DNA of 64,000 nt from Lachnospiraceae bacterium (GTDB lineage: Bacteria > Bacillota > Clostridia > Lachnospirales > Lachnospiraceae): positions 1 to 64,000 of the forward strand of contig JAETQH010000007.1 in NCBI GenBank assembly GCA_021770785.1, read 5' to 3'. The translations under genes and the position numbers were made by a program. The notes under the pieces were generated by a model. It was not told the origin of the DNA, did no database searches, and was given only the letters and a program-made list of their open reading frames with translations. This document shows, in pieces, positions 6,789-63,703 of the stretch (within the stretch, counting starts at the first letter, position 1; each line of letters starts with the position of its first letter).

Positions 6789-6790
6789 TA

Positions 6791-11185: not shown

Positions 11186-11269
11186 GTATAAAACATTTTT
11201 TATTTATGGTTCTGCAGCACGCAGTCCGTTTACTTAATTCCTAGCAGTAGGTCTTATTCACTATTATGA

Positions 11270-11297: not shown

Positions 11298-11342
11298 GCC
11301 GTGTATATTCAGCGGCTATCTTTAATAAAAGGAGGATTTAAA

Positions 11343-12932: not shown

Positions 12933-12947
12933 CAAAAGGAGGAACCT

Positions 12948-14853: not shown

Positions 14854-14893
14854 CATCCTGTGTCGGATGAACCACAATAAAAGGAGGAACCTA

Positions 14894-16327: not shown

Positions 16328-16574
16328 ATATCTCCCTGCAATCTATAAACCAAATATAATAGAGGAATGGTATCTGAAGCATTGCCTTGAACGGCATCTG
16401 GATAGCCCTTTGTTTTCCGCGGCGATAAACTGCTGCAGAAAAACAGGGGCTTTTTCTTACGAAACAACGCTTTATCCTGTATTTCTGATACTAAAAAAAT
16501 ACTTATCTGTATACACGGAGCTTTCCATGATACAGGTCATTTACCTTGGCAATTCTGTTACTCTGTATTCCTGA
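16275..16574 (+). CDS. Possible small protein overlapping the dnaX 3' end
   Basis: A 99-codon frame, +1 relative to dnaX, runs past the dnaX stop to 16574. A TTG at 16275 has GGAG six bases upstream, so translational coupling from dnaX is possible. The translation after the overlap (YLPAIYKPNIIEEWYLKHCL, then PVFLILKKYLSVYTELSM) looks protein-like. No homologue recognised. A ribosomal frameshift product of dnaX is an alternative but no slippery site was identified. Its stop lies inside a 10-bp hairpin (16549-16583). Confidence 0.4.
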   Translation: MEAPAPRQLPICLKYDPKYLPAIYKPNIIEEWYLKHCLERHLDSPLFSAAINCCRKTGAFSYETTLYPVFLILKKYLSVYTELSMIQVIYLGNSVTLYS

Positions 16575-16602
16575 CAGAATTGCAAAAACACAAACCAGTA
16601 CT

Positions 16603-16632
16603 GCAGGTGCCATAAGTGGCATCTGCCTTTTT
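16603..16632 (+). terminator. Terminator-like hairpin immediately before the dnaE ribosome binding site
   Basis: GCAGGTGCCA-TAAG-TGGCATCTGC (10 pairs, one G-T) followed by CTTTTT and then AAAAGGAGG of dnaE. No promoter is visible between it and dnaE, so dnaE expression would need read-through. Confidence 0.65.
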
Positions 16633-16646
16633 AAAAGGAGGAACAT

Positions 16647-19600
16647 ATGAATCAAATATCATTTGCACATCTGCATTCCCATACGCCTTACAGTCTGCTG
16701 GACGGATCAAACAAAATTTCCGAATACATAAAACGCGTTAAAGAGCTTGGAATGAAAAGCGCAGCCATCACGGATCACGGGGTAATGTATGGAGTTGTGG
16801 ATTTCTACAAATGCGCAAAGGAAGCCGGGATTCATCCGGTCATCGGGTGCGAAGTATATGTCGCCCAGGATTCCATGTCAAACAAAAACGACCGCGGTTA
16901 TTATCACCTTGTACTGCTTGCCGAAAATAATGAAGGCTATCAGAGCCTTATCAAGCTGGTATCGCTCGGCTTTACAGACGGTTTTTATTACCGCCCCAGA
17001 ATCGATTTTAAGGCGCTTTCTGCCCATCATAAGGGTTTAATCGCGCTGAGCGGCTGCCTCGCCGGAGAAGTGCCCAAAAAGCTCTCACAGGGCAATTACA
17101 AAGGAGCCTGTGAAACCGCAATGCTCTACCAGTCGCTTTTTGGCAGGGATAATTATTTCTTAGAACTGCAGGACCACGGAATTCCCGAACAAAAGAAAGT
17201 CAATCAGCTGCTGGTGCGGATGCATGAAGAGCTGGATATTCCTCTTGTCGCCACAAATGATGTACATTATACAAGGAAAGAGGATGCCGAGGCACACGAT
17301 GTCCTTTTGTGCATACAGACAAAAAAACTGCTGACAGACAAAGACCGCTTGCGTTACGAAGGAGACCAGTTCTATGTAAAGTCACCTGAAGAAATGTACC
17401 AGCTCTTTCCTGAAATGCCGGAAGCTTTGGAAAACACGGAAAAAATAGCGAACCGTTGTCAGGTTGAATTTACTTTTAACCATTATCACTTGCCGCAGTT
17501 TGAAACGCCAAAGGGATATGATTCGTGGGAATATTTAAACAAACTGTGCAGAGACGGACTGATGGAGCGCTACCCCGATTGTTATAAAGAACATGAGGAC
17601 AGACTTTCTTATGAGCTTAACACAATAAAAAAGATGGGATTCGTCGATTATTTCCTGATTACATGGGATTTTATCAATTATGCCAAAGAAAACGGCATAC
17701 CGGTCGGTCCCGGACGCGGCTCCGCTGCTGGCAGCCTTGTTGCTTACTGTTTGAAAATTACGGAGGTTGATCCCAAGAAATACAACCTGCTTTTTGAACG
17801 TTTCCTTAATCCGGAGCGTGTAACGATGCCTGATATTGATATCGACTTCTGCTATGAACGGCGCCACGAAGTTATTGACTATGTTGTGTCAAAATATGGC
17901 AAGGATCAGGTTGCACAAATTGTTACCTTCGGTACTCTTGCCGCTAAAGGCGTAATACGGGATGTTGGACGTGTACTCGGGATACCGGCTTCAACGGTTT
18001 CCCAGATTAGCCAGCTTATTCCAACGGATGCAAAAACCACGCTTGACAGCGCCCTTACAGATGTGCCGGAACTTAAGAAAAAATATGAAAGCAGCGATGC
18101 CATACGGAAGCTGATTGATATCTCAAAATGCCTTGAAGGACTGCCGCGGCATACATCTACGCATGCAGCGGGTGTTGTTATCTGCCCGAAAGAAGTTTCA
18201 TCTTTCGTACCTGTCTGCCTCTCCAGTGAAGGAGCATTGACAACGCAGTTTGTCATGACCACTTTGGAAGAACTCGGTCTGTTAAAAATGGACTTTCTGG
18301 GCCTGCGGACATTGACAGTCATACAAAAGGCAAGGGACGCAATAAAACAGAATTATAATGCCGAGGTTACGTTTGATTACCAGGATCCCTCTGTTTTCCA
18401 GTATATCAGCACAGGACAGACAGACGGTATTTTTCAGCTGGAAAGCAGTGGCATGAAAAGCTTTATGCGCCAATTAAAGCCACAAAATCTGGAAGACCTG
18501 ATTGCCGGAATATCGCTTTACCGTCCGGGACCTATGGATTTTATCCCCAAATATATCAGCGGAAAAGCAGATCCGGCAAGCATCACCTACGAGATTCCTC
18601 AATTAAAGGAAATTCTCGACCCTACTTACGGGTGCATCATTTATCAGGAACAGGTAATGCAGATTGTAAGGGCGCTGGCCGGCTATAATTACGGCCGGGC
18701 CGACCTGGTAAGGCGCGCAATGTCAAAGAAAAAAAGCAAGGTCATGGAGGATGAAAGGAAGGTATTCCTTTCCGGCAATGAGCATGTTAAAGGCTGCATC
18801 AGCAACGGTATCCCGGAAGATGCAGCAAACAGAATTTTTGACCAGATGATTGATTTTGCCAAATACGCCTTCAATAAGTCCCATGCAACGACTTATGCCG
18901 TAGTTGCATACCAGACGGCTTACCTGAAATATTATTACCCGGCAGAGTTTCTTGCCGCACTGATGAGTTCCGTAAGGAGTGATACAGGAAAGACTGCAGA
19001 GTACCTTCTTTTAAGCCGGCAGCTGTCAATTCCCATAACAAAGCCCGATGTCAATTGCGGAAATTTGGATTTTACGGTTCGGCAAAATGCAATTATTTAC
19101 TCTCTGGCATCTATCCGTGATGTAGGCGATAACTGCGTTTCAGACCTTTGTGGGGAACGTTCAAAAAAATCGTTCCAGGACATGAAAGATTTTATTTCAC
19201 GCATGAATTGCTACAGTACCTTCAACAAAAGAACCATAGAGGCATTGATCAAATCCGGGGCTATGGATTGCTTTGGACACACAAGAAAGTATATGATGGA
19301 ACAGTATCCCGAAATTTTAAACAGGATCAGCTATGAAAAAAAGAATGGAATGGCAGGCCAGACCCCGTTATTCAGCCTGTTTGCAGCAAAAAAAACCGTA
19401 CAGGAAGAAGAGTTTCCGCTCTTAACACTGCTTGCGGACGAAAAAGAGGTTCTCGGCATTTACCTGAGCGGGCATCCTTTGGATGAACTTTACCTGCAAT
19501 GGATGTCCGGTGTAACGGCTAAAAGCACCGATTTTCAGCAGACGGAAGAGAGCTGTGTTCTGAAAGACGGGAAAACGGTCACAGTAGGCGGGATAATATC

Positions 19601-20048
19601 CTCAATAACTGAAAAACAGACTCGTCAGAAAAAGAAAATGGCAATTATTACACTGGAGGATCTGGTTGGCAGTATAGAGGTGGTTGTCTTTCCGCAAAAG
19701 TACGATGATTACTGCGAAAAGATGAAAGAAGGGGAAAAAGTTTTTTTTACCGGAACTGTAAAGAATGAGGATGATAAGAATGCAACACTTATCTTTGAAA
19801 AAATGACACCGATAAATGCTTCCATTTCCGAAATATGGCTTCAGTTTTCTAATATTCAGGAGTACGAAAAACTTAACCATAAACTGGAGCAGCTTTATCC
19901 AAGGTATATCGGTGATGTTCAGATAAAGATTTACCTGAGAAATACAAGGCAGGTGAAATGTCTGGATACAACCCGTCTTTTGGTTAATGAGGAATCATGG
20001 AATTCTTTATGCGATTTATTGGGGCAGGAAAATGTAAGACTTAGATAA
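16647..20048 (+). CDS. dnaE: DNA polymerase III alpha subunit (DnaE type)
   Basis: 1133 residues. N-terminal PHP domain (AHLHSHTPYSLLDG, AAITDHGVMYG), then the palm with VGPGRGSAAGSLVAYCL and the catalytic acidic cluster PDIDIDF near 395-401, fingers (IYQEQVMQI), a tandem HhH region and a C-terminal OB fold (VTVGGIISSITEKQT). It has no inserted DnaQ exonuclease, so it is not PolC. GQTPLFSLF near residue 904 matches the QxxLF beta-clamp-binding pattern. Proofreading would need another protein or the PHP domain. Carrying a complete replicative polymerase on a plasmid is unusual and implies partly host-independent replication. Confidence 0.96.
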   Translation: MNQISFAHLHSHTPYSLLDGSNKISEYIKRVKELGMKSAAITDHGVMYGVVDFYKCAKEAGIHPVIGCEVYVAQDSMSNKNDRGYYHLVLLAENNEGYQSLIKLVSLGFTDGFYYRPRIDFKALSAHHKGLIALSGCLAGEVPKKLSQGNYKGACETAMLYQSLFGRDNYFLELQDHGIPEQKKVNQLLVRMHEELDIPLVATNDVHYTRKEDAEAHDVLLCIQTKKLLTDKDRLRYEGDQFYVKSPEEMYQLFPEMPEALENTEKIANRCQVEFTFNHYHLPQFETPKGYDSWEYLNKLCRDGLMERYPDCYKEHEDRLSYELNTIKKMGFVDYFLITWDFINYAKENGIPVGPGRGSAAGSLVAYCLKITEVDPKKYNLLFERFLNPERVTMPDIDIDFCYERRHEVIDYVVSKYGKDQVAQIVTFGTLAAKGVIRDVGRVLGIPASTVSQISQLIPTDAKTTLDSALTDVPELKKKYESSDAIRKLIDISKCLEGLPRHTSTHAAGVVICPKEVSSFVPVCLSSEGALTTQFVMTTLEELGLLKMDFLGLRTLTVIQKARDAIKQNYNAEVTFDYQDPSVFQYISTGQTDGIFQLESSGMKSFMRQLKPQNLEDLIAGISLYRPGPMDFIPKYISGKADPASITYEIPQLKEILDPTYGCIIYQEQVMQIVRALAGYNYGRADLVRRAMSKKKSKVMEDERKVFLSGNEHVKGCISNGIPEDAANRIFDQMIDFAKYAFNKSHATTYAVVAYQTAYLKYYYPAEFLAALMSSVRSDTGKTAEYLLLSRQLSIPITKPDVNCGNLDFTVRQNAIIYSLASIRDVGDNCVSDLCGERSKKSFQDMKDFISRMNCYSTFNKRTIEALIKSGAMDCFGHTRKYMMEQYPEILNRISYEKKNGMAGQTPLFSLFAAKKTVQEEEFPLLTLLADEKEVLGIYLSGHPLDELYLQWMSGVTAKSTDFQQTEESCVLKDGKTVTVGGIISSITEKQTRQKKKMAIITLEDLVGSIEVVVFPQKYDDYCEKMKEGEKVFFTGTVKNEDDKNATLIFEKMTPINASISEIWLQFSNIQEYEKLNHKLEQLYPRYIGDVQIKIYLRNTRQVKCLDTTRLLVNEESWNSLCDLLGQENVRLR

Positions 20049-50645: not shown

Positions 50646-51722
50646 TTATGAAACTTGATGTTTTGCAAAAGCTCTACGAGAAATAGCAATACCAATTCCT
50701 ATAAATATAAGTGCAACAGGTACAGCTAATATTGCATATAATACGCCGTTGCTCATTTGACCTACCGACATAAGCGAAATAAACTGAGCGTGATATAATG
50801 GCAAAAGTGCGATAATCCTGAATAACGAACTTGTTTCGGAAACAGGCAGAATAACAGGAAAAAGGTAAATTGCAGCAGAAGCGACTAAGGCTACCATTTG
50901 GCTTTTACATACAGCGGATAGAATCAATGTAACGCCTGTGACACTGACAGCGCCGGTAAATGCTAAAAGGATTTGATATTTAAGCAATGTGCCGCAGGTA
51001 ATATTAAAAGGAATATATCCTTCAACGAAGCCCGCAGGCGCAAAAAGAATACTGCAATCTAACCCGTTACTTCCATAAAGCATAAAAGCATATATAAAGT
51101 TAATTGTCGAAATAGTCGCAGTCATAATCAATGCAGCTAAAATACTTCCAATGATTTTCGCTGCTGCGCATTTTGTCCTCCCATATTTGCTTGTCAGAAT
51201 AATATTATCGACTCCCCCATACTCGCCAGAGAAAACAGGTGCAGTCATAATAATGATAGATAATGATAAAATAATGAATACCCTTACCATATTTTCGCTT
51301 GTTTTGAGCCAGCCGTATGTATATCCAATCTTAATCTCTTCACTCCCAAATACATCGGAAACTCTAAGCCCATTCCAGTTACCGTCTAAATCAGAAAAAT
51401 TACGGAACAAAGCCGATTGCATGGCATTATGGTAAAGATATGCCGCATTCATACCATGTAAATCCTGCGTAGGCTTAAAATCAGTCATCATTTGCTGCAC
51501 CTTTTCATCAGTTAGCGCCCCCTCATATTTTTCTGCAACAGACTTATCAATTTCAACGGCTGTTCGTCCTGTGCCCTCATTACTTATTCCGTCAAAGGCA
51601 TACATATTTTGATATGTTGAAAAGCCTAAAAGAACCGATAAAAGTAGTAAAGCAGCAAAAATAACCTGTGTAAGCCGCTTTGAAAATATCTTCCGTAACT
51701 CAAATTGAATTAGTTTTTTCAT
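50646..51722 (-). CDS. ABC-2 type permease, peptide export/immunity-like
   Basis: 358 residues, start overlapping the ATPase stop (ATGA). One N-terminal TM (TQVIFAALLLLSVLLGFSTY), a ~100-residue extracytoplasmic loop, then five hydrophobic segments (VFIILSLSIIIMTAPVFSGEYGG…, IIGSILAALIMTATIST, LLKYQILLAFTGAVSVTG, MVALVASAAIYLFPVI, LYAILAVPVALIFIGIGIAI). This is the layout of ABC-2 permeases in lantibiotic-type immunity and drug-efflux modules. It acts with the ATPase encoded upstream. Confidence 0.8.
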   Translation of the reverse strand: MKKLIQFELRKIFSKRLTQVIFAALLLLSVLLGFSTYQNMYAFDGISNEGTGRTAVEIDKSVAEKYEGALTDEKVQQMMTDFKPTQDLHGMNAAYLYHNAMQSALFRNFSDLDGNWNGLRVSDVFGSEEIKIGYTYGWLKTSENMVRVFIILSLSIIIMTAPVFSGEYGGVDNIILTSKYGRTKCAAAKIIGSILAALIMTATISTINFIYAFMLYGSNGLDCSILFAPAGFVEGYIPFNITCGTLLKYQILLAFTGAVSVTGVTLILSAVCKSQMVALVASAAIYLFPVILPVSETSSLFRIIALLPLYHAQFISLMSVGQMSNGVLYAILAVPVALIFIGIGIAISRRAFAKHQVS

Positions 51723-52594
51723 TTCTCTGCATCTCCTTTAAAATAGTATAAATATAAATCTTCCAAATTAGGCCGTATCGGTATTGCATTTTCCATAGGC
51801 GGGTGATCTGCAATTATCCGCAATACAGTTTCGCCCCTGTCTGTATTTCGGAGATTGCTCGTGTTAAATGCAGCGGCACATTTCTCTGCATGAGCAGTCG
51901 GAACAGTACATTCCCATACTTGCCCATCAATTTCAGAAGTGATTTCTTGTGGTTTCCCAAAATGAATAATTTCACCAGATTTCATCATTATGATTTCTTC
52001 TGCAATAAATTCTACATCCGAAACAATATGCGTCGATAAAATTACGATACGGTCTTGCGCAAAGGCACTGATTATGTTACGAAAACGTACGCGCTCTTTT
52101 GGATCGAGACCCGCTGTCGGCTCGTCTAAAATCAAAATGTGGGGATTATTAAGCATTGCCTGTGCAATTCCTAAACGCTGCTTCATACCGCCTGAAAAGG
52201 TCTTGATTTTGTGCCTACTTTCCTCAGACAGTCCCACCGCTTCAAGTAGCTGCTTTGATTTTTTCTTTGCGTTTTTTTCACTTAACCCCTTTAAGGCAGA
52301 TATATACAGCAAAAAATCAAGTGCTGTAAATTCAGGATAATACCCAAAATGTTGCGGGAGATAGCCTAAAAGTTCACTGTATTTTTCACCTAACGTCACA
52401 ATGTTTTTTCCATCTAAAACAATTTTTCCGGAAGTTGGTGTCTGAATGTTGCACAACAGCCGCATGAACGTAGTCTTTCCTGCTCCGTTTGCACCTAACA
52501 AGCCATAAACTCCATTTGACAGTGTAATATTCAAATGTTTTACGGCGGTTTTGGAGCCAAATTTTTTGGTCAGATCGATAGTTTTTAGTTTCAT
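51719..52594 (-). CDS. ABC transporter ATPase
   Basis: 291 residues. All motifs are intact: Walker A GLLGANGAGKTTFMRLL (~33-49), Q-loop YLPQHFG, signature FSGGMKQRLGIAQ, Walker B ILILDEPTAGLDP and the His switch VILSTHIVSD. The C-terminal ~70 residues are the extension typical of ABC-2 partners. It starts at an ATG with AAAGGAG. Its promoter region carries a direct repeat that fits binding of the OmpR-type regulator encoded upstream on the same strand. Confidence 0.92.
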   Translation of the reverse strand: MKLKTIDLTKKFGSKTAVKHLNITLSNGVYGLLGANGAGKTTFMRLLCNIQTPTSGKIVLDGKNIVTLGEKYSELLGYLPQHFGYYPEFTALDFLLYISALKGLSEKNAKKKSKQLLEAVGLSEESRHKIKTFSGGMKQRLGIAQAMLNNPHILILDEPTAGLDPKERVRFRNIISAFAQDRIVILSTHIVSDVEFIAEEIIMMKSGEIIHFGKPQEITSEIDGQVWECTVPTAHAEKCAAAFNTSNLRNTDRGETVLRIIADHPPMENAIPIRPNLEDLYLYYFKGDAEK

Positions 52595-52708: not shown

Positions 52709-53884
52709 TCAATATTTTGTTTTGAAAAATGCGGTCACCTTTGCACCATCCGCAATATTCTCAATCTGCAGGTAGCCACCGTGATGTTCACAGAGTAGCT
52801 TACATATATAAAGCCCTAATCCAAAGTGTTTAAAATGATCGGATTCCTCTGTGAAATATGGGTTAGCAGCTTTGCACAGAACATCTTTGTTAAAGCCTTT
52901 TCCATCGTCAGATACCGAAAGTCGTAAGCCGCCATCACTAAATTCAAAAGTAAGCGTTACCGCAGCACAGGCGTAACGGACAGCATTCGCAATCAGATTA
53001 TTACATACCTGTGAAACAAATTCTGTGTCAATAGACAGTTCATGTATAAAGGTTTTGTTTTGCCGATATAACTTTTTTCCCTTCTGTATACATACAATTT
53101 CTGTGCTTTCATATAAGGAAGATAAAAATGGCTGCAAAAGAACTGTTTTGTATTCCGGTTGTGTATCTTCCAAACGCTGAAGATTACTCATGCTGGCTAC
53201 ATATGTTTCCATCCGAGATATATGCTTTCCCATCGTAACTGCAGTTTCTCTGGTCTGTGTGTTATCGCTTGCCTGTAGCATTTCATCATAACCTTTCAGC
53301 ACCGTAAGCGGGGTTCGCAGGTCATGAGCAAAAGCAGCGTTAAGCCGTTTGCGATCCTCAACCTGCCGCCACATCTCTAAAAAATTATTTGCAAGTTTAG
53401 TCCGCATAATTTCAAAAGAAGTACAGAGCTGCCCTAATTCGTCATTACTATCATATTCGATCAAAAAATCAAGATCATTATTTGCTATTTTTTCAGATGC
53501 CGCCCGCAATTCCGCAAGCGGTTTCTTCAGCTTATCCTTATAAAATAATAGTACCGCCCCTATGATACACAAAGCAGAGTAAAGTGGTGTTGCAATAACA
53601 GGAATTAACGCTAATAGTGCTATTGTACGTTCGTCCTGTTCTGCTAATGAAACTGGTGTACTGTTAATATAAGCACCGTCCCCTAACTGTTCACCATGTT
53701 CATTCGTTAAATAATACTTTTCGCCGGATATTGGGTAAGAATCTCTAATAGTATTTGTCATACTGTTGCATAAGGAAGCTGTCATTACAGAAAGGATAAG
53801 TGCAAGCATAACAAATATTACCACATAAAGCATAAGACTTTTCCGGAGAGATAAACCCCGTCCTAGGTGTCTTACTTTATCCAT
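52709..53884 (-). CDS. Sensor histidine kinase
   Basis: 391 residues. TM1 (~17-40), extracytoplasmic loop (~41-88), TM2 (IALLALIPVIATPLYSALCIIGAVLLFY), HAMP (KLKKPLAELRAASEKIANND), HisKA with phospho-acceptor FAHDLRTPLT near residue 187, then HATPase with CNNLIANAVRYA (N box), VSDDGKGFN (G1) and HFGLGLYICK (G2). The ~50-residue sensor loop is of moderate size, compatible with peptide or membrane-stress sensing. It overlaps the regulator gene by 13 bases. Confidence 0.92.
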   Translation of the reverse strand: MDKVRHLGRGLSLRKSLMLYVVIFVMLALILSVMTASLCNSMTNTIRDSYPISGEKYYLTNEHGEQLGDGAYINSTPVSLAEQDERTIALLALIPVIATPLYSALCIIGAVLLFYKDKLKKPLAELRAASEKIANNDLDFLIEYDSNDELGQLCTSFEIMRTKLANNFLEMWRQVEDRKRLNAAFAHDLRTPLTVLKGYDEMLQASDNTQTRETAVTMGKHISRMETYVASMSNLQRLEDTQPEYKTVLLQPFLSSLYESTEIVCIQKGKKLYRQNKTFIHELSIDTEFVSQVCNNLIANAVRYACAAVTLTFEFSDGGLRLSVSDDGKGFNKDVLCKAANPYFTEESDHFKHFGLGLYICKLLCEHHGGYLQIENIADGAKVTAFFKTKY

Positions 53885-54579
53885 TTATACCCACACCCCC
53901 AAACTGTTTCAATATACACTCGGTTTGTGTATACAGCAATTTTCGTACGTATTCTGCGAATATGTTCGGCCACAACATTGCTGTCGCCGTCGCTGTCATA
54001 ACCCCAGATGCGTTCATATATCCTTTCTTTGTCAAAAACCTGTCCTGGATTTTGGGATAGCAGTTCCACGATGTCAAATTCCTTTTTGGCAAGGCCGAGG
54101 CGTTTGTTCGCAAAAAACAGGCATCGCTCCGAATAGTCAATTGTTAATTCACCGGAAAATCTAATCTGCGCTTCAAAGCCCCGCCGTGTTTCCCGACGCA
54201 GGTGGGCAGATACTCTGGCTTCAAGCTCCATAAGAGAGAACGGTTTGACTATATAATCGTCACCTCCGGCAGCAAACCCTTTAACCTTATCAGTATCTTC
54301 AATTCGTGCAGTCAAAAAAAGAATAGGACAGGATATATGGTCACGAATGCGTTCACAGATCTCCAGCCCAGTTGAGCCGGGCATATTTATATCGAGCAAA
54401 ATAATGTCTGGCTGTCGTTCTACTTGTTTCAGTGCTTCTGTTCCATTTGTGGCAGATAAAACAAGATAACCCTTACTTTCAAAAAAGCTGCGAAGCATTG
54501 ACACAATATCTGCTTCATCATCAGCTATCAATATTTTCGTTTTTATTTTTCGCACCTCCAACCTATAGTATAAAACCAA
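53872..54579 (-). CDS. OmpR/PhoB-type response regulator
   Basis: Receiver domain with ILIADDEADI, phospho-acceptor LLDINMPG and TARIEDTD, followed by a winged helix (FSGELTIDYSERCLFFANKR, VAEHIRRIRTKI, IETVWGCGYKW). The start is unresolved. The longest frame uses TTG at 54579, but this lies before a TATACT-like box and before the GGAGG. The best-spaced codon after GGAGG is AUA at 54546, followed by KTKILIADDEADI, where relatives normally have Met. GTG at 54555 overlaps the ribosome binding site. It probably activates the ABC operon through the repeats at 52682-52699. Confidence 0.9.
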   Translation of the reverse strand: MVLYYRLEVRKIKTKILIADDEADIVSMLRSFFESKGYLVLSATNGTEALKQVERQPDIILLDINMPGSTGLEICERIRDHISCPILFLTARIEDTDKVKGFAAGGDDYIVKPFSLMELEARVSAHLRRETRRGFEAQIRFSGELTIDYSERCLFFANKRLGLAKKEFDIVELLSQNPGQVFDKERIYERIWGYDSDGDSNVVAEHIRRIRTKIAVYTNRVYIETVWGCGYKWIK

Positions 54580-55130: not shown

Positions 55131-56360
55131 ATGGACAATAAATGCATGAGTTTTTCTGATTCCACTAAATTTATGTTTAATGCAGATTCGGTCATTATAT
55201 TTAATAGATTAAACGGTCAATGGATAAAAATATCAAGGGAATGTTATGAAATACTTAGAAACTGTATGAGCGAAAAATTAACAGAGGAAGAAATGCTTTC
55301 TAGGCTAGCAGATGAAGAAGATCGGGCTTATATAAGGAAGATGCTTGATTTGTTAGATTCTATGGGATGTATGTATAGGAAAACAGTGCAAAAAGTCAAC
55401 AATGTCAGTTTTGCAATTACACACCGTTGTAACCTAAAATGTATACACTGTATGGTAAATGCACAGTATGGAAATGAACAAACAGATTATTTTGATACAG
55501 AAACCATATGCAGGTTGTTGAATAAAATAGTTTCGGTTGAACCTGAAGTTGTTGTTCTGACAGGTGGGGAACCGCTGCTTAGAAAAGATTTCTTGGATAT
55601 ATTATCACACTTAAGAAGCAAGTATAGCGGAAAAATAACATTAATGACAAACGGCACGTTATTTAATTCTCAAAATATTACTCCTATCATTGAAAAAGTA
55701 AATAATATAGATATTAGTCTTGATGGCGCTGATGAAGAATCCTGCTCTGTTATAAGGGGCAAAGGTGTATTTGATCGAGTAGTTAATAATATAGATATTT
55801 TAAAACAAAAAGGTTTTGAAAATATTTCACTTTCAATGGTGTTGAGTAATAACAATTTACGTTATGCACAACAGTTTTTTGAACTTAACAGAAAACTTCA
55901 TACATTTCCAATGCTAAGAGCATTGTCCTATGAAGGTAGAGCTAAAGATAATAAAACATTATTGGAGAATTCTTTGACAACAGATAGAATTTGTCAGGGA
56001 AGTGACACCAACTCTAATATAGAACAAAAATGCTGCTGTTGTACAGCTGGGTATGATCAAATTACTATAGAAGCAAATGGAGATATTTTTCCATGTAATT
56101 TATTTGGATCAGAAGAGTTTAAATTAGGAAACATAACAAAGATAGATAATTTAATGGATATTTTAAACACGAACAAAGGAAGCTTTGTGTGTCGAGCAAT
56201 AGAAAAATATGAACCTGACAAATTTTTGAAATGTAAAGAATGCAATATTAATTATTTATGCTGGTCCTGCCTCTATCCAATGTATTCTTTGTCAGATGAT
56301 GAATTTGAAGAGCGGTGTAAGGCAAAGAAACAGTTATTATCAAATGTTTGGGAGGAGTAA
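55131..56360 (+). CDS. Radical SAM/SPASM peptide maturase with N-terminal PqqD-like domain
   Basis: 409 residues, ATG with AAGGAGGAG. Residues ~1-85 (SVIIFNRLNGQWIKISRECYEILRNC…MLDLLDSMGCMYRK) look like a PqqD-type RiPP recognition element. The radical SAM core starts ITHRCNLKCIHCMV, with cluster cysteines C100, C104, C107, then VVLTGGEPLLRKDF (GGE motif). A SPASM-type C-terminus carries CCCC near 300, IFPCN near 321 and CKECNINYLCWSC near 367-380, enough ligands for auxiliary clusters. It probably installs crosslinks on one or both precursor peptides encoded downstream. First gene of the RiPP operon. Confidence 0.9.
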   Translation: MDNKCMSFSDSTKFMFNADSVIIFNRLNGQWIKISRECYEILRNCMSEKLTEEEMLSRLADEEDRAYIRKMLDLLDSMGCMYRKTVQKVNNVSFAITHRCNLKCIHCMVNAQYGNEQTDYFDTETICRLLNKIVSVEPEVVVLTGGEPLLRKDFLDILSHLRSKYSGKITLMTNGTLFNSQNITPIIEKVNNIDISLDGADEESCSVIRGKGVFDRVVNNIDILKQKGFENISLSMVLSNNNLRYAQQFFELNRKLHTFPMLRALSYEGRAKDNKTLLENSLTTDRICQGSDTNSNIEQKCCCCTAGYDQITIEANGDIFPCNLFGSEEFKLGNITKIDNLMDILNTNKGSFVCRAIEKYEPDKFLKCKECNINYLCWSCLYPMYSLSDDEFEERCKAKKQLLSNVWEE

Positions 56361-56365
56361 GTTTT

Positions 56366-57412
56366 ATGAACTTTTCCGTTTTTTTTACGAATAGATGCAA
56401 TATGAATTGTAGTTACTGCTATGAGAAAAATAAAAAAGAATGTTCTATGAGCTATGAGATTATAGATAAAACCATTGATTTTATTGTAAGCAAAAAGCAT
56501 GAAAACCCAACGGAAAAACTGTCAATAGTGACACATGGAGGGGAGCCTTTACTTGAATTTGAAAAAATCAAATACTTCGTCTCAGCGTTGAAAAATCGCA
56601 TAGAGAACGTGAGTTATATAATTACAACGAATGCAACTCTTTTAAACGATGAAAATATCGATTTCTTAATCAAAAATTATGCTCAGATTTCTATAAGTAT
56701 TGATGGAAATGAAAAGGCACATAATAGTAATCGAATTTTTCACAATAGAAGAGGGAGCTTCGATATTGTTATACAAAATTCTAAAAAAATACTTGATAGA
56801 GCTCCGTTTGATATTTGCGCTAGAATGACAGTTAATCGAAAGAATGTAGAGTATTTGTTTGATGGAGTTAAATGGCTTTTAGATTTTGGATTTGTTTCTA
56901 TTTCACCAGTTCCGGATCAGTATGATAATAATTGGACAGATAGTGATATGAATGAATTATATAATCAAGGGGTCCAAATTATTGATTATCTAAAAGGGTA
57001 TAAGGGAGATTGTAAAGTAGACCTTATTGATGATGCACTTGTAAGATGCATGAATTCTGCATGCGATGGGGGAAGGACAAGCTTCACTATTGATACTGAT
57101 GGTAGCATATATCCTTGTCTGGCAGCGGCTGGAGTAAGCGAATTTGTAATAGGATCTGTCGATAATGGTATTAATCACGAATCAGTTGAGCGCATTTTGG
57201 AGTGGGCGCAAGCAAAAAACCAAGCATGTATTGGATGCTCTCGTTATGAGTATTGTGATTGTACTAGGTGTAAGATAATAAATAAAATATACACAGGAGA
57301 TTTGAATACGCCAATCGTAGCAATATGTAATATAGAAAATGTAAAAATAAGGCTATCGCAATACTATCAAAAGGTGTTTCCTAATGGTCAAAATGCCCTA
57401 AATAAAGAGTGA
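56366..57412 (+). CDS. Second radical SAM/SPASM peptide maturase
   Basis: 348 residues from the ATG at 56366; GGGAGGAG overlaps the end of the previous gene. The core begins at once: FFTNRCNMNCSYCYEK (C11, C15, C18), with THGGEPLLEF as the GGE motif. There is no N-terminal recognition domain. The C-terminal SPASM region has CMNSACDGG, SIYPCLAAAG and CIGCSRYEYCDCTRC. The gene ends 16 bases before the first precursor gene. Having two maturases, only one with a recognition domain, suggests two modification steps or one enzyme per precursor. Confidence 0.9.
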   Translation: MNFSVFFTNRCNMNCSYCYEKNKKECSMSYEIIDKTIDFIVSKKHENPTEKLSIVTHGGEPLLEFEKIKYFVSALKNRIENVSYIITTNATLLNDENIDFLIKNYAQISISIDGNEKAHNSNRIFHNRRGSFDIVIQNSKKILDRAPFDICARMTVNRKNVEYLFDGVKWLLDFGFVSISPVPDQYDNNWTDSDMNELYNQGVQIIDYLKGYKGDCKVDLIDDALVRCMNSACDGGRTSFTIDTDGSIYPCLAAAGVSEFVIGSVDNGINHESVERILEWAQAKNQACIGCSRYEYCDCTRCKIINKIYTGDLNTPIVAICNIENVKIRLSQYYQKVFPNGQNALNKE

Positions 57413-57428
57413 AAGGAGGAAATGCAAT

Positions 57429-57593
57429 ATGAAAATCAAGAAAATTGATACATCTATACCATTAAAGGTAGTCGCTCAGGCTTGCACAAATATGTGCGAA
57501 GAAACAGTTTGGGCCGGTAAAACCTCTAAAGAGGGAAATGCAGGTGGATGCTGGACAGCAACTGGTTATACGGCTCGCGGCGCATTATTCTAA
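57429..57593 (+). CDS. RiPP precursor peptide 1
   Basis: 54 residues, ATG with AAAGGAGG nine bases upstream. The N-terminal MKIKKI and the following ~11 residues resemble a short leader. The core has C19, C23 and C41, with QACTNMCEETVWAGKT then NAGGCWTATGYTARG. It shares the MKIKKI start and the pattern QAC-x3-C-x2-T-x(1,2)-W-x-G-[KR]-T-xn-GC with peptide 2. Likely substrate of the adjacent radical SAM enzymes and exported after leader removal. Confidence 0.85.
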   Translation: MKIKKIDTSIPLKVVAQACTNMCEETVWAGKTSKEGNAGGCWTATGYTARGALF

Positions 57594-57637
57594 AATAGCA
57601 TTTTTTCTGAAAAAATAATATAAAGGAGGGATTCGGC

Positions 57638-57808
57638 ATGAAGATTAAAAAGATCGCAAGTACAGATGTCAACTTAAATGTTCGCGGTCAGGCTTGCGGA
57701 GATGACTGTACTGAAACCAAAATCTGGGTTGGCAGAACTGATGGCAACACTTCTGGCTGCGTAATTTACAATACTGTATACACGCCTAAAACTAACACCC
57801 ACTTATAA
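57638..57808 (+). CDS. RiPP precursor peptide 2
   Basis: 56 residues, ATG with AAAGGAGG. Leader-like MKIKKIASTDVNLNVRG is followed by a core with C20, C24 and C41 (QACGDDCTETKIWVGRT, then GNTSGCVIYNTVYTPK). Spacing of the first two cysteines, the Trp-x-Gly-Arg/Lys-Thr block and the final Gly-Cys matches peptide 1, while the C-terminal tails differ. This may be a two-component product or two variants. The hairpin at 57854 follows. Confidence 0.85.
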   Translation: MKIKKIASTDVNLNVRGQACGDDCTETKIWVGRTDGNTSGCVIYNTVYTPKTNTHL

Positions 57809-57853
57809 GGGTAACTGCTCACCATAATTGACCATAGGGCATATGACATATAT

Positions 57854-57884
57854 GGGAAAGGTACTTATAGCTGCCTTTCCCTTC
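57854..57884 (+). terminator. Partial terminator after the precursor genes
   Basis: GGGAAAGG (57854-57861) pairs with CCTTTCCC (57874-57881), followed by TTCTT. It separates precursors from the protease and exporter genes and could give more precursor mRNA than enzyme mRNA. Confidence 0.65.
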
Positions 57885-57900
57885 TTAAATGGAGATTTAT

Positions 57901-58890
57901 ATGAATAATGATGTTATTGTATTAATAGATACGGGTTTAGATAAAGAGATATACAGGAATCGCATTGTTGGCGGCATTCATTTCTATATAGAAGACGAAA
58001 TGATATGTTGCGATAAAAATTATAATGATGATAATGGCCATGGAACTGCGTGCGCAGATGTTATTACTAGAGTATATAAGAATGCTCGTTTTTTTGTTAT
58101 AAAGATTTTAAATTCAGAAGCGGAAACAAATTATCCGCTCCTAGAGATGGCTATGGAATACTGCATCTCCCTAGAATATAGACTTATTAATCTAAGCTTG
58201 GCAATGTTACAAGAGGATAGTGAAAAAAAACTTAGAGAAATATGTCAATGTTTATTGAATAGAGGAAAAGTAATTGTTGCATCTGTCTACAATGGGGAAA
58301 AAAAGTCATTTCCCGCACTTTTTAGTACTGTAATAGGTGTTAGAGGGAATCGATTTGAGTTACATCGTGAATATTGGTTTGATAATAATAAAGAAATACA
58401 ATGTATTGGAGATTTGACACCAATATTTACAAGGTGGGATAGGGAAAAATTTTATCTATTTGGGGGGAATAGCAAAGCATGCGCATACATTGCAGGGTAC
58501 ATTATAAAAACCTGCGCTGATGAAAATATAGAGATTAATTTTAATAATGCTTGCTGTATATTAAAAAAGTATGCTGTTCGGACAGAGTGGAAAGAAATTG
58601 AGATCAATTGCAGTAAAGAGCCCCATATATATGAGAATTGTTTGTTTAAAGACGAAATAAATAAAAAGGTTAAAGAGCTTTTATATAGAATAACCGGAAA
58701 TAAGGAAGTACTTAATATTGGAATATACACAAGTTTATTTGATGAGAATGTATTAAATAGGGATACTTGTAAGAAATTGATAAAACTAATAGAAGAAACA
58801 TTTAATATAGTTATATCCGAAAATCTTATTGATTATGACAGTATAGGTACGCTTAGCGGAATGACAAATATGATTGAACGTCTTATTTAA
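57901..58890 (+). CDS. Subtilisin-like (S8) protease with acyl-carrier-like C-terminal domain
   Basis: 329 residues from the ATG at 57901, which has GGAG seven bases upstream (the ATG at 57889 has none). No signal peptide, so it acts inside the cell. The triad is visible: D10 in VIVLIDTGLD, H47 in DDNGHGTACADV and S191 in GGNSKACAYIAGY, with N131 as a candidate oxyanion residue; GNSKA replaces the usual GTSMA. Residues ~253-329 match an acyl carrier protein in pattern (VKELLYRITG…LIKLIEETFNIVIS…IGTLSGMTNMIERLI), but the carrier Ser is Arg. It probably removes the leader peptides. Confidence 0.82.
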   Translation: MNNDVIVLIDTGLDKEIYRNRIVGGIHFYIEDEMICCDKNYNDDNGHGTACADVITRVYKNARFFVIKILNSEAETNYPLLEMAMEYCISLEYRLINLSLAMLQEDSEKKLREICQCLLNRGKVIVASVYNGEKKSFPALFSTVIGVRGNRFELHREYWFDNNKEIQCIGDLTPIFTRWDREKFYLFGGNSKACAYIAGYIIKTCADENIEINFNNACCILKKYAVRTEWKEIEINCSKEPHIYENCLFKDEINKKVKELLYRITGNKEVLNIGIYTSLFDENVLNRDTCKKLIKLIEETFNIVISENLIDYDSIGTLSGMTNMIERLI

Positions 58891-58929
58891 TATAACGCTA
58901 TAAATCCGAAAGTGGGCAGGAGGATTAAA

Positions 58930-60639
58930 ATGAAAAAAATCAAATTGCTGATGGAAATATTTAATTTTGTTAAAATAAAAAAACGAATATACATCATTGG
59001 ACTTTTGCTAATGTTTATTAGTAGTGTTTCCAAGATAATGCTTCCTTTTTTTATATTGAAGATTTTGGATAATGCTATTTCATATAATAACATGAAACTA
59101 TTGATTCGCTATACAATTGGGATGATTATTTGTACTCTTTTAGGTTCACTTTGTGACTATGTGTACCAAATAATGCTTAATCATTATAATCGAGAGTTGG
59201 TGGTTAGCTTGAGAAACGATTGCTTTGATCATTTGGAAAGGATGTCGGGTGACTTCTTGACGAGTTATTCTAGCGGAGATGTTTTTACTTGTTTATATAG
59301 AGATGTTGAGGAAATTCCAAATATACTTACAACTTCCTTATTAAATTTTATATCGAATATTATATTAATAATTGGATATGCATATTATTTAGTTACTTTA
59401 CAGTTTGACTTATTGCTAATCCTAATAGCTTTTCAAATAATGATTTTTGCTATTCAGAAGAAATATAATTCTATAATTGAGAAATCATCAGAACATACGA
59501 GAAATGCTATATCATCATTAAATAGTTCAGCACAAGAAATGATAAGTAATTTATTCGCATTTAACGAAGGAGGATTAAAATCTTATTTTAGAAAAAAGCA
59601 TAATAATTTAGAAAATAATTTTGCAAAATCGTTTATAGAAAATATGACAAATATGATAAAGAATAACCTAATATTATCAGGGGTGAATTTAATATCTATG
59701 GCATCTATTTTATGTTATGGAGGAATGAAAGTGATTGCCGGAAGTTTATCCTATGGCGGCTTAGTTACATTCAACATTTATTCTCAAAGATTTATGGGGC
59801 CCATTATGAATCTTGTTCGTTTTAACAATGATTTAGTAGCATGCATGGTTTCATGGGAGAGATTACAAAAACTTTTAAATATAGAAAGTACAGTTGTTTC
59901 TGGAAATGAAAAGATAGATTTGACTGGTGATATAATATTCGAAAATACAAGATTTAAATATGAAGAAAGTAAAGATTGGATATTAAATGATATGTCTCTA
60001 ACAATATTTAAAGGGAAAATTCATGCTATTGTTGGAAAGAGTGGATGTGGTAAAACTACTCTTATTCATTTGCTTTATAGACTGTGGGATGTTGAACAAG
60101 GGAAAATCAGCATAAATGGAAAAGATATAAAAAGAATCGAAATAGAATATTTAAGAAAACAGATAAGCATAGTTAGTCAAAACATTTTTTTGTTGGATGA
60201 TAGTATATATAATAATATTGTTTTAGGACAAGCAATTACTCAAGAAGAGCTAGAAGTTGTATTAAAAGAAGCTGAATTAGATGTATTTATTGAAAATTTA
60301 CCAAACAAACTTAATACAATGGTTGGTGAAAACGGTATAAAGCTTTCTGGTGGAGAAAAACAAAGAATTTCTATAGCAAGAGCTTTAATACGAAAGAGTC
60401 CATTACTTGTATTTGATGAAGCGACCTCAATGTTAGACAATGACACAGAGGACAAAATTATTTCAATATTATTAAAGTCGTTTCGGGATAGAACAATAAT
60501 TCTTATAGCTCATAGGCTATCGACTGTAAAAAATGCTGATATTATTTATGTTATAGACAACGGACATGTGGGAGAGAGTGGAACACATGAAGAACTATTA
60601 CATATAGGTGGATTATATGCAGAACTTTACAATATTTGA
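58930..60639 (+). CDS. ABC exporter, fused TM and ATPase domains, no peptidase domain
   Basis: 569 residues from the ATG at 58930 (AGGAGG upstream; a GTG at 58912 overlaps the site). Six TM segments lie in ~1-290, then an ATPase with Walker A GKSGCGKTT, Q-loop IVSQNIFLL, signature LSGGEKQRIS, Walker B LLVFDEATSMLD and H-loop IAHRLST. It lacks the N-terminal C39 peptidase of many bacteriocin exporters, which fits the separate S8 protease. It most likely exports the matured peptides. No terminator was found after it. Confidence 0.93.
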   Translation: MKKIKLLMEIFNFVKIKKRIYIIGLLLMFISSVSKIMLPFFILKILDNAISYNNMKLLIRYTIGMIICTLLGSLCDYVYQIMLNHYNRELVVSLRNDCFDHLERMSGDFLTSYSSGDVFTCLYRDVEEIPNILTTSLLNFISNIILIIGYAYYLVTLQFDLLLILIAFQIMIFAIQKKYNSIIEKSSEHTRNAISSLNSSAQEMISNLFAFNEGGLKSYFRKKHNNLENNFAKSFIENMTNMIKNNLILSGVNLISMASILCYGGMKVIAGSLSYGGLVTFNIYSQRFMGPIMNLVRFNNDLVACMVSWERLQKLLNIESTVVSGNEKIDLTGDIIFENTRFKYEESKDWILNDMSLTIFKGKIHAIVGKSGCGKTTLIHLLYRLWDVEQGKISINGKDIKRIEIEYLRKQISIVSQNIFLLDDSIYNNIVLGQAITQEELEVVLKEAELDVFIENLPNKLNTMVGENGIKLSGGEKQRISIARALIRKSPLLVFDEATSMLDNDTEDKIISILLKSFRDRTIILIAHRLSTVKNADIIYVIDNGHVGESGTHEELLHIGGLYAELYNI

Positions 60640-61264: not shown

Positions 61265-61681
61265 ATGGAAACCAAAAACCGTATTCGAGAACTCAGGAAG
61301 AGCATGAATCTGTCCCAGGAGACCCTCGCCGCCATCCTCGGCACCTCCCAGCAGGCGGTAAGCCGCATGGAGAACGGAGCCTATGACATACCCACAGACC
61401 TGCTGGTAAAGATGGCGGATTCATTCAACGTTACCACCGACTACATACTCGGACGCACCGACATCAAGCGTGACTTAAGCGGCCAGGTGCGTATGAATCA
61501 TGAAATGGACAGGTATTACGATATTGTATTGCGCTACCAGCGCCTGACGGACATTAATAAAAAGACCTTAATGACAATGCTGGAACGGCTGGAGCAGGCG
61601 CAGGGCGAACAGGAGAAACTTGTAACAGGGAATTTACACCGGAAGGAAAATGATGTGGATGATGAAGATAGTGGTATGTGA
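61265..61681 (+). CDS. XRE-family regulator of the agr-like locus
   Basis: 138 residues from the ATG at 61265, 12 bases after AAAGG; the ATG at 61253 sits on the ribosome binding site. METKNRIRELRKSMNLSQETLAAIL, then TSQQAVSRMENGAYDIP is a canonical Cro/CI HTH (~5-60) with a helical, Gln/Glu-rich C-terminus. Its stop overlaps the response-regulator gene. It probably gates expression of the quorum-sensing genes. Codon use is more GC-rich than in the RiPP operon before it. Confidence 0.9.
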   Translation: METKNRIRELRKSMNLSQETLAAILGTSQQAVSRMENGAYDIPTDLLVKMADSFNVTTDYILGRTDIKRDLSGQVRMNHEMDRYYDIVLRYQRLTDINKKTLMTMLERLEQAQGEQEKLVTGNLHRKENDVDDEDSGM

Positions 61682-62402
61682 CGATGATATGCGTTTTGCG
61701 GCGGAACTGGAGGAAATGGTGCGCCGCGAAGCGGCGGATGCGGGGATCAGTGTAGAGACGGAAGCTTATTCTGATGGCGACACTCTGGTTGCAGACATTG
61801 AAAAAAGTTACCGTTATGATTTGATTTTTCTTGACATAGAGATGGAGAGGGTAAACGGAATAAATGCTGCGCGGCAGATACGTCGCATTGATCGAGCCGC
61901 TCTCCTCATTTACGTGTCCGGCTATGAACAGTATTTAAAGGAGCTGTTTGAGGTGGAGCCGTTTCGGTTTCTTTCAAAGCCCGTGGATGTGATAAAGTTC
62001 CGAAAATACTTCCGTGATGCCTGTGCCCGCATAGGAAATACGGAAGCCTATTATCACTTTTCTTTCAATAAGGAGATTCGGAAAGTTGCGGTCAGGGACA
62101 TCGTATATTTCGAGAGTCGCAACCGAGTAGTACATATATTCATGGCAGATGGCTCCGAGGAGCGTTTTTACGGCAGGCTAAACGCTGTTGAGAAAGAGCT
62201 TTCAGAGGGGTGTCAGGAGTTTCTGCGGATACACCAGTCGTTTCTCGTGAATTATGGTTATATAGAGAAGATGAACTTTTCTTTGGTGACGGTGCTCTTC
62301 GGGAACGGGAACCGGATTGACCTGAAGATCAGCGAAGACAGAGAGAAGGAGGTGCGATCACGGCTTTGCAAGATGGCAGGAGGGAAGGCGGTGGACGGAT
62401 GA
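61653..62402 (+). CDS. AgrA-like response regulator, receiver plus LytTR
   Basis: 249 residues using ATG at 61653 (GGAAGG six bases upstream); ATG at 61659 or 61662 is also possible. Receiver: KIVVCDDDMRFA, phospho-acceptor LIFLDIEMERVNG, KPVD. LytTR DNA-binding domain from ~135: IRKVAVRDIVYFESRNRVVHI, FYGRLNAVEKEL, FLRIHQSFLVNYGYI. AgrA-type regulators activate the agr promoter after sensing the cyclic peptide. A truncated relative of the LytTR part lies at 50205-50390. Confidence 0.92.
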   Translation: MWMMKIVVCDDDMRFAAELEEMVRREAADAGISVETEAYSDGDTLVADIEKSYRYDLIFLDIEMERVNGINAARQIRRIDRAALLIYVSGYEQYLKELFEVEPFRFLSKPVDVIKFRKYFRDACARIGNTEAYYHFSFNKEIRKVAVRDIVYFESRNRVVHIFMADGSEERFYGRLNAVEKELSEGCQEFLRIHQSFLVNYGYIEKMNFSLVTVLFGNGNRIDLKISEDREKEVRSRLCKMAGGKAVDG

Positions 62403-63703
62403 ATCCTATATTTACCTATGTCGGCAGCCTGCTGACATCATGCTTTTACATACTCATTATGCATAAATTAATGAAGGCATTCTTCTCCTGCCCATCGGGA
62501 AACCCGCTGCGTTTTGTGGTATGGACCGTTTATTACATCCTGCAGGTGGTTCCCATCATAGGCGTGGTCATATCTCCGCCGGTAATGTTTTCCCTAAATA
62601 TGTCACTTGTACTCATAATCAGTTCTATATCATACGATGCAGGCATAAAAAGGCACTGCATCTTTTCAGTGCTGGTGTGTGCCGTGTGGATGCTCATGGA
62701 GATTTCCGTTGATATCATTCTAAGACTGGCCGGAATGGAGGGGTGGGAATTGCAGACGGCGGGAACCGTCATCTCATTGATGCTCATGTATCTGCTTGCC
62801 ATAACCGCGGGGCATTACGTGAGGCGGACAGAACAGCGTGACATTCCGTTCCGGTATGCCGTTGCGGTTCTCACTGTTCCCGCTGGAAGCGCCTACCTGA
62901 TGCACAACATTTTCCTGATAACAGCGCAGCATGAGGAATACACGTCGTTCGCCATCATCTCGGGTATCCTGCTTCTCCTGCTGATCTACATGATATTTGA
63001 GGTCTATGACCGCATGGTGGATGATGCAGAGGCTCAGGAGAAGAATCTGCTTTATGAACAGGAGCTTGACCTTTTAAACAGACATGCGCAGGAACGTGAG
63101 GCGTACGACATGGAGATGAGGCGGCTACGGCACGATATGAAGCACCATATGTCGAGTCTGTTGGGGATGCTGCAGGGGGATGATACGAAACAGGCAGAGG
63201 AATACGTGCGCGGAATGCTTCAGGGAGCCTCAGAATGCCGGGCAGAGGATGTTTCCCGGACCGGAAACGCCATCGTGGACAGCCTTGTAAATCATAAATG
63301 TGGCATCGCCAGAGCAGAGGGTATCGTCTTTGATGCCAACGTGTTTCTGCCTGCTGAGCTACCTTTCCTGGGCGGACATCTTACCATAGTGTTCGGGAAC
63401 TTACTGGATAATGCGCTGGAAGCATGTCGGGAAGTTGGGGAGGGAAAGCGATATGTCACGCTGGACGTCTCGTATGAGAAGGAAGTCCTTATGATTGCCG
63501 TTACAAACCCCTACCGCGGGGAACGGAGGAAAAACCGCATGGGGAAATACGTTACAACAAAGAAAGACTGCAGGAGCCACGGACTGGGACTCTCTTCTGT
63601 GGAGCAGGCGGCGGAAGCCTACTGCGGGCAGGTAGTTGCAGATGGGCAGGACGGCGTGTTCAGGGTATCGGTGGTGATGTACGGCAGCGAGGGGCAAAAA
63701 TGA
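62399..63703 (+). CDS. AgrC-like sensor histidine kinase
   Basis: 434 residues, ATGA overlap with the regulator gene. About six hydrophobic segments occupy ~1-205, the usual AgrC sensor. The kinase part has RRLRHDMKHHMSSLLGML (phospho-acceptor His), FGNLLDNALEACREV (N box) and SHGLGLSSVEQAAE (G box), of the HATPase_c_5 type. AgrC binds the extracellular cyclic peptide. The candidate peptide gene follows 117 bases downstream. Confidence 0.92.
   Translation: MNPIFTYVGSLLTSCFYILIMHKLMKAFFSCPSGNPLRFVVWTVYYILQVVPIIGVVISPPVMFSLNMSLVLIISSISYDAGIKRHCIFSVLVCAVWMLMEISVDIILRLAGMEGWELQTAGTVISLMLMYLLAITAGHYVRRTEQRDIPFRYAVAVLTVPAGSAYLMHNIFLITAQHEEYTSFAIISGILLLLLIYMIFEVYDRMVDDAEAQEKNLLYEQELDLLNRHAQEREAYDMEMRRLRHDMKHHMSSLLGMLQGDDTKQAEEYVRGMLQGASECRAEDVSRTGNAIVDSLVNHKCGIARAEGIVFDANVFLPAELPFLGGHLTIVFGNLLDNALEACREVGEGKRYVTLDVSYEKEVLMIAVTNPYRGERRKNRMGKYVTTKKDCRSHGLGLSSVEQAAEAYCGQVVADGQDGVFRVSVVMYGSEGQK

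Follow-up and report, generated by a model that had tools for sequence, protein, structure and literature searches.

A stretch of 64,000 nucleotides from Lachnospiraceae bacterium (assembly GCA_021770785.1, contig JAETQH010000007.1, positions 1 to 64,000; hereafter the window) carries at 55131-60639 a six-gene cassette that, by its sequence, is a member of a coherent family of loci for ribosomally synthesised and post-translationally modified peptides (RiPPs), defined by a pair of radical S-adenosylmethionine (SAM) maturases and uncurated in NCBIfam or Pfam. We consider it likely that the locus makes a two-peptide, bacteriocin-like, cross-linked RiPP by means of the maturase pair, an S8 protease and an exporter. 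An earlier, sequence-only reading of this DNA had proposed a complete modified-peptide pathway here; that interpretation is supported and is the best reading of the locus.

The cassette, its family and the precursors

In the window none of the six genes has an interrupted frame; they lie on the forward strand and are separated by gaps of 5, 16, 44, 92 and 39 bp in order, which confirms the compact layout first described. With the starts of the two maturase genes, the protease gene and the exporter gene refined, they encode rSAM1 (55131..56360; 409 aa), rSAM2 (56366..57412; 348 aa), precursor A (57429..57593; 54 aa), precursor B (57638..57808; 56 aa), an S8 protease with an acyl-carrier-like domain (57901..58890; 329 aa) and an ATP-binding cassette (ABC) exporter with permease and ATPase parts (58930..60639; 569 aa).

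Relatives were gathered through the protease and rSAM2. The protease protein was searched against a plasmid collection (11 records, of which the genes of four were inspected) and against 145 relatives, and a protease profile was run over 392 genomes of the order and 391 of the class, the genes at selected hits being inspected. An rSAM2 profile was scanned over named genomes, and the genes of 36 of the best 80 matches were inspected; the other 44 had E-values of 9e-31 or worse and mostly titles from other phyla. Three of the four plasmid records are true cassettes, circular plasmids with the same gene set (C. difficile p_TW11 and two of P. sordellii); the fourth, from Staphylococcus casei (L040; L numbers denote loci), has lanthipeptide-type genes and no cassette, and was rejected. 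A DNA search of the plasmid collection gave no match to the cassette, and viral contigs held no relative of rSAM2.

The resulting set comprises 30 loci with the maturase pair, the window included, all in Clostridia, with hosts that include Lachnospiraceae, Clostridiaceae, Peptostreptococcaceae, Oscillospiraceae and Peptoniphilaceae. L129 (same genes as L113), L163 (same as L119), L125 (broken) and L118 (protease only) were dropped, and the sister and CcpM loci treated below also stand outside the set. Both maturases occur in 30/30 loci, adjacent in all except L111, the protease in 28/30 and the exporter in 26/30, some loci stopping at contig ends. A precursor accompanies the maturases in 29/30 loci, none having been found in Peptostreptococcus sp. 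D1 (L142), which speaks against the refuting condition set by the sequence-only reading, small genes not conserved with the maturases; because loci were found via the protease or rSAM2 and selected for the maturase pair, those counts are partly by construction, the precursor count less so.

The two small products of the window had been called twins, and both indeed begin with MKIKKI and share QAC-x3-C, W-x-G-[KR]-T and GC. Twenty-eight precursors of the family were aligned, leaving out those of L039, L041, L111, L113, L116, L117, L127 and L134 and the second of L135, which belong to a second motif group or are near copies; the L131 row is one residue short. The consensus is MKIKKIxxKxxxxxVxxQGCxxDCxxxx[Y/W]xGxTxxxxxGCxxxxxxxTAKTxxxW, where the consensus tool gives Y and the Y/W choice was read from the alignment rows. 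The family core thus runs from C-x2-D-C through [W/Y]-x-G-x-T to a third Cys. Cys2 is present in 28/28 precursors and C-x2-D-C in 25, with no run of such motifs; an aromatic lies among the last three residues in 25/28, and each precursor has 2-4 Cys. The middle motif is degenerate, [WYF]-x-[GAN]-x-[TS] occurring in 21/28 precursors and being absent or shifted in seven, and its Lys/Arg is not conserved across the family. W-x-G-[KR]-T is therefore a local version, and the core pattern of the sequence-only reading holds for the window pair, but the family constants are C-x2-D-C, the third Cys and the degenerate middle motif. The second motif group (the first seven of the loci left out) keeps C-x2-D-C and has additional Cys upstream. 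When the 28 precursors were scanned, the best matches had E-values of 0.026 in NCBIfam (far below cut-off) and 0.028 in Pfam, for one member each, in agreement with the earlier placement of the precursors outside named classes.

Chance open reading frames (ORFs) were ruled out as the source of the small genes by two results. Among 1338 ATG-started ORFs of 35-110 aa in the 30 loci, 46 have C..DC and at least three Cys, and 43 of these, in 27 loci, are cassette precursors by reading; a precursor with a GTG start (L112) and one with C..NC (L132) complete the 29 loci. The precursors also evolve as proteins: between the window and its nearest relative, a Pseudobutyrivibrio metagenome-assembled genome (L126), the proportions of nonsynonymous and synonymous differences (pN/pS) are 0.25/0.76 for A and 0.28/1.0 for B (52 and 55 codons), as compared with 0.37/0.77 for each maturase and 0.48/0.65 for the protease, so that the precursors change less than the enzymes, although these values are uncorrected and come from short genes with silent sites near saturation.

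L126 has both precursor types in the same order as the window. Core identity is 68% for A against A and 59% for B against B, compared with 43% between A and B of the window. The A and B lineages are thus kept apart in the two loci, which fits a two-peptide product, and by this comparison the product looks like one. Other loci have arrays of precursors, six in R. albus L133 (7216-8766) and eight in L111 (G434, 3311-17097), which suggests product diversification. A search of the window's own genome for further precursor copies turned up one match, weak and unconvincing (36%, E 0.0125), within a frame of 215 aa.

A candidate cut site precedes the core. The aligned leaders there have [DENK][VILA]xx[QE] in 23/28 precursors; the second place is V, I or A in 28/28, and the cut position holds Q or E in 25/28. 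This pattern, which was chosen after the sequences had been viewed, occurs within seven residues of the first Cys of the core in 27/28 precursors, as against 5.3 expected from shuffled leaders, and in the second motif group in 5/7 as against 1.9. We predict from the alignment that cleavage falls after Gln17 in A (VVAQ/AC) and Gln18 in B (VRGQ/AC), leaving cores of 37 residues (57480-57590, residues 18-54) and 38 residues (57692-57805, residues 19-56).

Maturases, protease and exporter

The two radical SAM genes were correctly recognized. rSAM1 matches Radical_SAM and SPASM in Pfam, and each enzyme has one CxxxCxxC (residues 100-107 in rSAM1, 11-18 in rSAM2) and a seven-Cys SPASM-type C-terminal set, C304-x12-G-x4-C322-x45-C368-x2-C371-x5-C377-x2-C380-x15-C396 in rSAM1 and C233-x12-G-x4-C251-x36-C288-x2-C291-x5-C297-x4-C302-x18-C321 in rSAM2. 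Neither maturase reaches the cut-off in any of its best 25 NCBIfam matches. The best model for rSAM1 is StsB (NF045574; 104.8 bits, cut-off 625); it also scores 87.8 bits against WgkB (NF050035; cut-off 650), 71.1 against CcpM (TIGR04068; cut-off 500) and 68.7 against PapB. For rSAM2 the best model is PapB (NF047865; 210.6 bits, cut-off 340), with 147.9 bits against CcpM and 125.7 against the SCIFF maturase model TIGR03974 (cut-off 425). Membership of the SCIFF, CcpM, PapB, StsB and WGK families was rejected on these missed cut-offs. In a tree with CcpM and sister enzymes, the cassette rSAM2 proteins form one clade (support 98/92; 27/30 loci, L131, L134 and L144 being left out).

The solved structure nearest to rSAM2 is 5wgg (E 3.6e-28), and the best Foldseek matches of rSAM1 are 5why/5wgg (CteB), together with SkfB, SuiB and TigE. 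The two enzymes differ at the N-terminus. The model of rSAM1 (pLDDT, the predicted local confidence, 86.3) has there a beta3-alpha3 domain at high confidence (strands 12-16, 20-25 and 31-35; helices 36-47, 52-57 and 62-77), and rSAM2 has no such domain. Beta3-alpha3 is the topology of the RiPP recognition element (RRE), by which the rSAM1 domain may be called RRE-like. RREs resemble PqqD (PMC7470986, partial text).

The protease call also stands. The Pfam S8 match is weak (23.1 bits, cut-off 21.8), but in frames taken from one stop codon to the next the catalytic triad, D10/H47/S191, is conserved among the cassette proteases in 28/28. The S8 domain (residues about 1-235) models as a subtilisin (pLDDT 79.9, two loops <50), with subtilisin BPN' as a Foldseek match (E 1.4e-11). 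The nearest named family in NCBIfam is QhpE (NF049966; 98.1 bits, E 4.6e-28, below the cut-off of 165). The L141 and L144 proteases require a TTG start for the full frame, which keeps the triad; an L141 protease lacking Asp and His was an artefact of an ATG start, the stop-to-stop frame having both. As a side observation, the proteases at L130 3584-4588, L141 8673-9683 and L144 12476-13486 keep the triad and have lost the usual GHGT around the His.

The fusion of a carrier to the protease was confirmed as to homology and not as to function. By hhalign, residues about 250-329 (58648-58890) are related to the stand-alone carrier-like proteins encoded in sister loci (95.2%, E 2.7e-8), and a PDB search with a profile of the fused domain gives matches to acyl carrier proteins (best E 2.9e-4). 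In L046, L115, L121 and L124 the stand-alone carriers keep [DE]-S-[ILM], whereas in the fused domain the column aligned by eye to the carrier Ser has Ser in 2/17 sequences and Arg in the window. Since the attachment Ser is mostly absent, the domain is probably, from its sequence, a docking module and not a carrier.

The exporter has ABC_tran and ABC_membrane, with no Peptidase_C39 among the best 25 of its 28 Pfam matches, which agrees with its earlier description as an exporter without C39.

Proposed pathway and competing readings

In the pathway that we propose, the N-terminal RRE-like domain of rSAM1 would hold the leaders of precursors A and B, and rSAM1 would work as a pair with rSAM2. The pair would install thioether or other minus-2-Da cross-links involving the conserved Cys. 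Among these the most likely would be a link from Cys to an Asp or Glu side chain in C-x2-D-C, of the ranthipeptide type, made by rSAM2, with at least one further link made by the pair. The links that PapB makes in Cys-Xn-Asp motifs run from the Cys to Asp or Glu, n being 0-6 (PMC9413430, partial text); the Asp of C-x2-D-C falls within this range and rSAM2 scores best against PapB, and a Cys-Asp link is favoured for these reasons. Thuricin CD is the precedent for such a pair: there TrnC and TrnD are needed as a complex for two precursors (PMC12093266, partial text). The S8 protease, probably cytosolic and kept near the maturases or the exporter by its carrier-like domain, would then cut after the conserved Gln, and the ABC exporter would secrete the trimmed peptides. 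The LytTR/GHKL gene pair downstream could regulate the genes, and an ABC pair on the reverse strand may give immunity. The product is probably a weapon against rival bacteria, a reading for which SacP23, a bacteriocin cluster among the sister CcpM systems treated below, gives support.

Several points weigh against this reading. Precursor A of the window reads CTNMC, with Met where the Asp would stand, and the first Cys is missing from one precursor copy of R. albus. The first place of the leader pattern is K in A and N in B, not D or E, and 3/28 precursors have neither Q nor E at the cut position; the post hoc choice of the pattern counts here too. The shortfall of rSAM2 against the PapB cut-off belongs here, as does the TM-score of rSAM1 to known maturases, which is only about 0.5. 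An RRE was not confirmed by sequence: a PDB search gave none, and the hhalign match to PqqD-like proteins is weak, at only 9%. The A/B argument for two peptides draws on two loci only. LytTR/GHKL homologues are found in 7/30 loci and the reverse-strand ABC ATPase beside 5/30, window included in both, so that regulation and immunity are weakly tied to the cassette. The product and its activity are themselves predictions.

A rather unlikely alternative is a sactipeptide variant, in which Cys would be linked to backbone alpha carbons (for instance at conserved positions such as Thr, Trp or residues flanked by Gly) and rSAM1 would do most of the catalysis, rSAM2 being its partner. The StsB model as the best match of rSAM1, SkfB among its fold neighbours, and thuricin CD, where a single enzyme of the pair can carry out the chemistry (PMC12093266, partial text), all point this way. 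Against this, a PapB/CteB-like rSAM2 is present in 30/30 loci (partly by selection), and the Asp before Cys2 in 25/28 precursors is explicable by a Cys-to-Asp link.

It is improbable that the peptides are a signal or a peptide-derived protein cofactor, as in the Qhp system, and not a weapon. The QhpE profile match of the protease and the LytTR/GHKL genes near 7/30 loci would suit such a role, but the QhpE score is below cut-off, Pfam finds no oxidoreductase among the six cassette proteins (no systematic annotation of neighbours was made), and six or eight precursors per locus in L133 and L111, with an exporter in 26/30 loci, indicate a secreted product.

Carbon-carbon links at the conserved aromatic, of the streptide, WGK or cyclophane type, with the Cys forming disulfides or binding metal, are less probable still. 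The WgkB match of rSAM1, one among others, its fold neighbour SuiB and the aromatic motif of 21/28 precursors agree with them; the WgkB score is far from its cut-off of 650, however, and the motif is absent or shifted in seven precursors where Cys2 is in all 28, its Lys/Arg not being conserved. Decay or silencing of the cassette in this lineage is very improbable, given that six genes are open and precursor pN/pS is about 0.3, even though rSAM2 is interrupted in Lachnospiraceae bacterium 1XD21-87 (L125).

Returning to the cross-linked two-peptide product, a stronger form of it is that the family is a new RiPP class of Clostridia, with a leader-binding and a PapB-like SPASM enzyme as an obligate pair, an unprecedented Cys-Asp-Cys/[W/Y]-x-G-x-T...Cys cross-link pattern, a protease whose dead carrier domain serves as assembly hub, and a need for two complementary peptides; we hold this to be doubtful.

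Genomic setting and related systems

Downstream of the cassette on the forward strand are a LytTR response regulator (61650..62402; Pfam LytTR) and a GHKL sensor kinase (62399..63703; Pfam HATPase_c_5), the latter AgrC-like; both are likely regulators, and control of the cassette by them is plausible. Upstream on the reverse strand are an ABC ATPase (51719..52594), with homologues beside the cassette in L119, L126, L136 and L156, and a candidate permease partner (50646..51722), so assigned by position, for which we found no Pfam match and no blastp match among the neighbours; this pair is a plausible immunity transporter. Between it and the cassette, also on the reverse strand, a sensor kinase (52709-53884; Pfam HisKA, HATPase_c) and a response regulator (53872-54498; Pfam Response_reg, Trans_reg_C) perhaps control the possible immunity pair.

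Within the cassette, a hairpin with a 10-pair stem (57854..57881, forward strand) lies between precursor B and the protease gene. It appears in the predicted fold of 57809-57890, for which -21.1 kcal/mol applies to the entire stretch, and was not listed in a consensus terminator scan; from this model it is a possible partial terminator or mRNA stabiliser. A promoter scan found 40 sites as against 37.3 expected and so has nothing to say on promoters.

The cassette had been called plasmid-borne. Circular plasmids carry it in three relatives, and for the window residence on a plasmid is plausible: its contig of 113,354 bp, which looks like a mobile element, encodes the alpha subunit of DNA polymerase III and a clamp-loader subunit, together with a ParA-like ATPase and a type IV secretion coupling protein. 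The contig ends do not overlap, so that the element may be either a plasmid or integrated. The element's own polymerase III alpha and clamp-loader subunits stand at window positions 14867-20048, beside conjugation and ParA-like genes, and the same contig has at 95936-110033 an AgrB-like gene, a second LytTR/kinase-like pair and Tad-pilus-like genes (by eye from translations). In a DNA search of 60 genomes the cassette was found only in the window's own genome, which is what a mobile cassette would lead one to expect; of the other matches listed, one of 41 bases falls in the protease part and the rest fall in the ABC part. In L125 an otherwise identical rSAM2 is broken, at a point corresponding to window 56535-56544, by a 1.25-kb insertion (L125 934-2188). 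The inverted ends of this insertion are imperfect, it has a target repeat of 10 bp, and it contains a transposase-like ORF of 373 aa.

Among known systems, the CcpM/CLI_3235 group (TIGR04068, TIGR04066, TIGR04069; e.g. SacP23) has the same Cys-rich precursor, SPASM maturase, S8 protease, acyl-carrier-related protein and exporter. SacP23 of Paenibacillus polymyxa comes from a bacteriocin cluster with an S8 protease and an acyl-carrier-related protein, and has reported activity against methicillin-resistant Staphylococcus aureus (PMC10731318, partial text). The cassette differs in its two maturases, its C-x2-D-C core, its CcpM scores below cut-off and its carrier, the CcpM-type association of carrier-related protein and S8 protease being found here as a fusion. 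TIGR04066 is not among the NCBIfam matches of the six window proteins (all matches for precursors and protease, the best 25 for maturases and exporter). Sister loci L047 (539.1 bits) and L122 (581 bits) pass the CcpM cut-off.

PapB and SCIFF ranthipeptides come close through rSAM2, nearest to PapB by profile and to CteB by structure, and through a Cys-Xn-Asp spacing within the range that PapB tolerates. The product of PapB is freyrasin. The cassette differs from them in having a second, unlike maturase in all 30 loci, and in having neither a Cys-X3-Asp run nor six Cys within 45 residues. TIGR03973 is the model by which ranthipeptides are called in a 2026 rumen survey (PMC13289728, partial text). 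The thuricin CD cluster likewise combines a pair of maturases with a pair of precursors (PMC12093266, partial text), but its peptides have three nested thioethers and N-terminal Cys, as against C-x2-D-C and a distant Cys here, a separation made by description and not by sequence. The thuricin CD-like feature of two precursor lineages kept together is seen in the window and L126 only. Gut bacteria make other anti-bacterial peptides with radical SAM enzymes, ruminococcin C (RumMC1/RumMC2) and gnavucin D (PMC8188230 and PMC13239113, partial texts). RumMC1 and RumMC2 are highly homologous, both with a predicted RRE, unlike the window's two maturases of different kinds; for gnavucin D one maturase gene is named and no protease gene was found, whereas the window has both kinds of maturase and a protease. 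QhpE, of the quinohemoprotein amine dehydrogenase system, is the nearest named S8 family, from which the cassette protease differs by its score and its added carrier domain. A class I lanthipeptide was rejected, no LanB or LanC being among the listed matches of the six window proteins. No title or abstract found in our literature search describes the cassette family; subscription papers were mostly outside that search, so that this negative does not show the family to be unpublished.

Two further groups were seen. Five sister loci (L145, L146, L148, L149 and L151) have three radical SAM genes (four in L145) and short precursors with a C..DC unit (e.g. CLNDC, CMNDC, CKKDC), and probably make up a further RiPP family that is uncurated. 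In a different pairing, a PapB-like maturase is followed by a small basic protein (123-150 aa) at L138 9119-9571, L139 4272-4643 and L140 9086-9472.

There is a real but unproven chance of new chemistry in this family of maturase-pair peptides. For it the analysis predicts the core peptides down to the residue, leader cleavage specific for Gln and an obligate pairing of the two maturases. The role in peptide maturation of a carrier fold without its attachment Ser can be asked here, and related CcpM systems pose the same question. The family, which lies outside the NCBIfam and Pfam precursor models, is widespread among Clostridia of the gut and the environment, and plasmids of C. difficile and P. 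sordellii are among its carriers.

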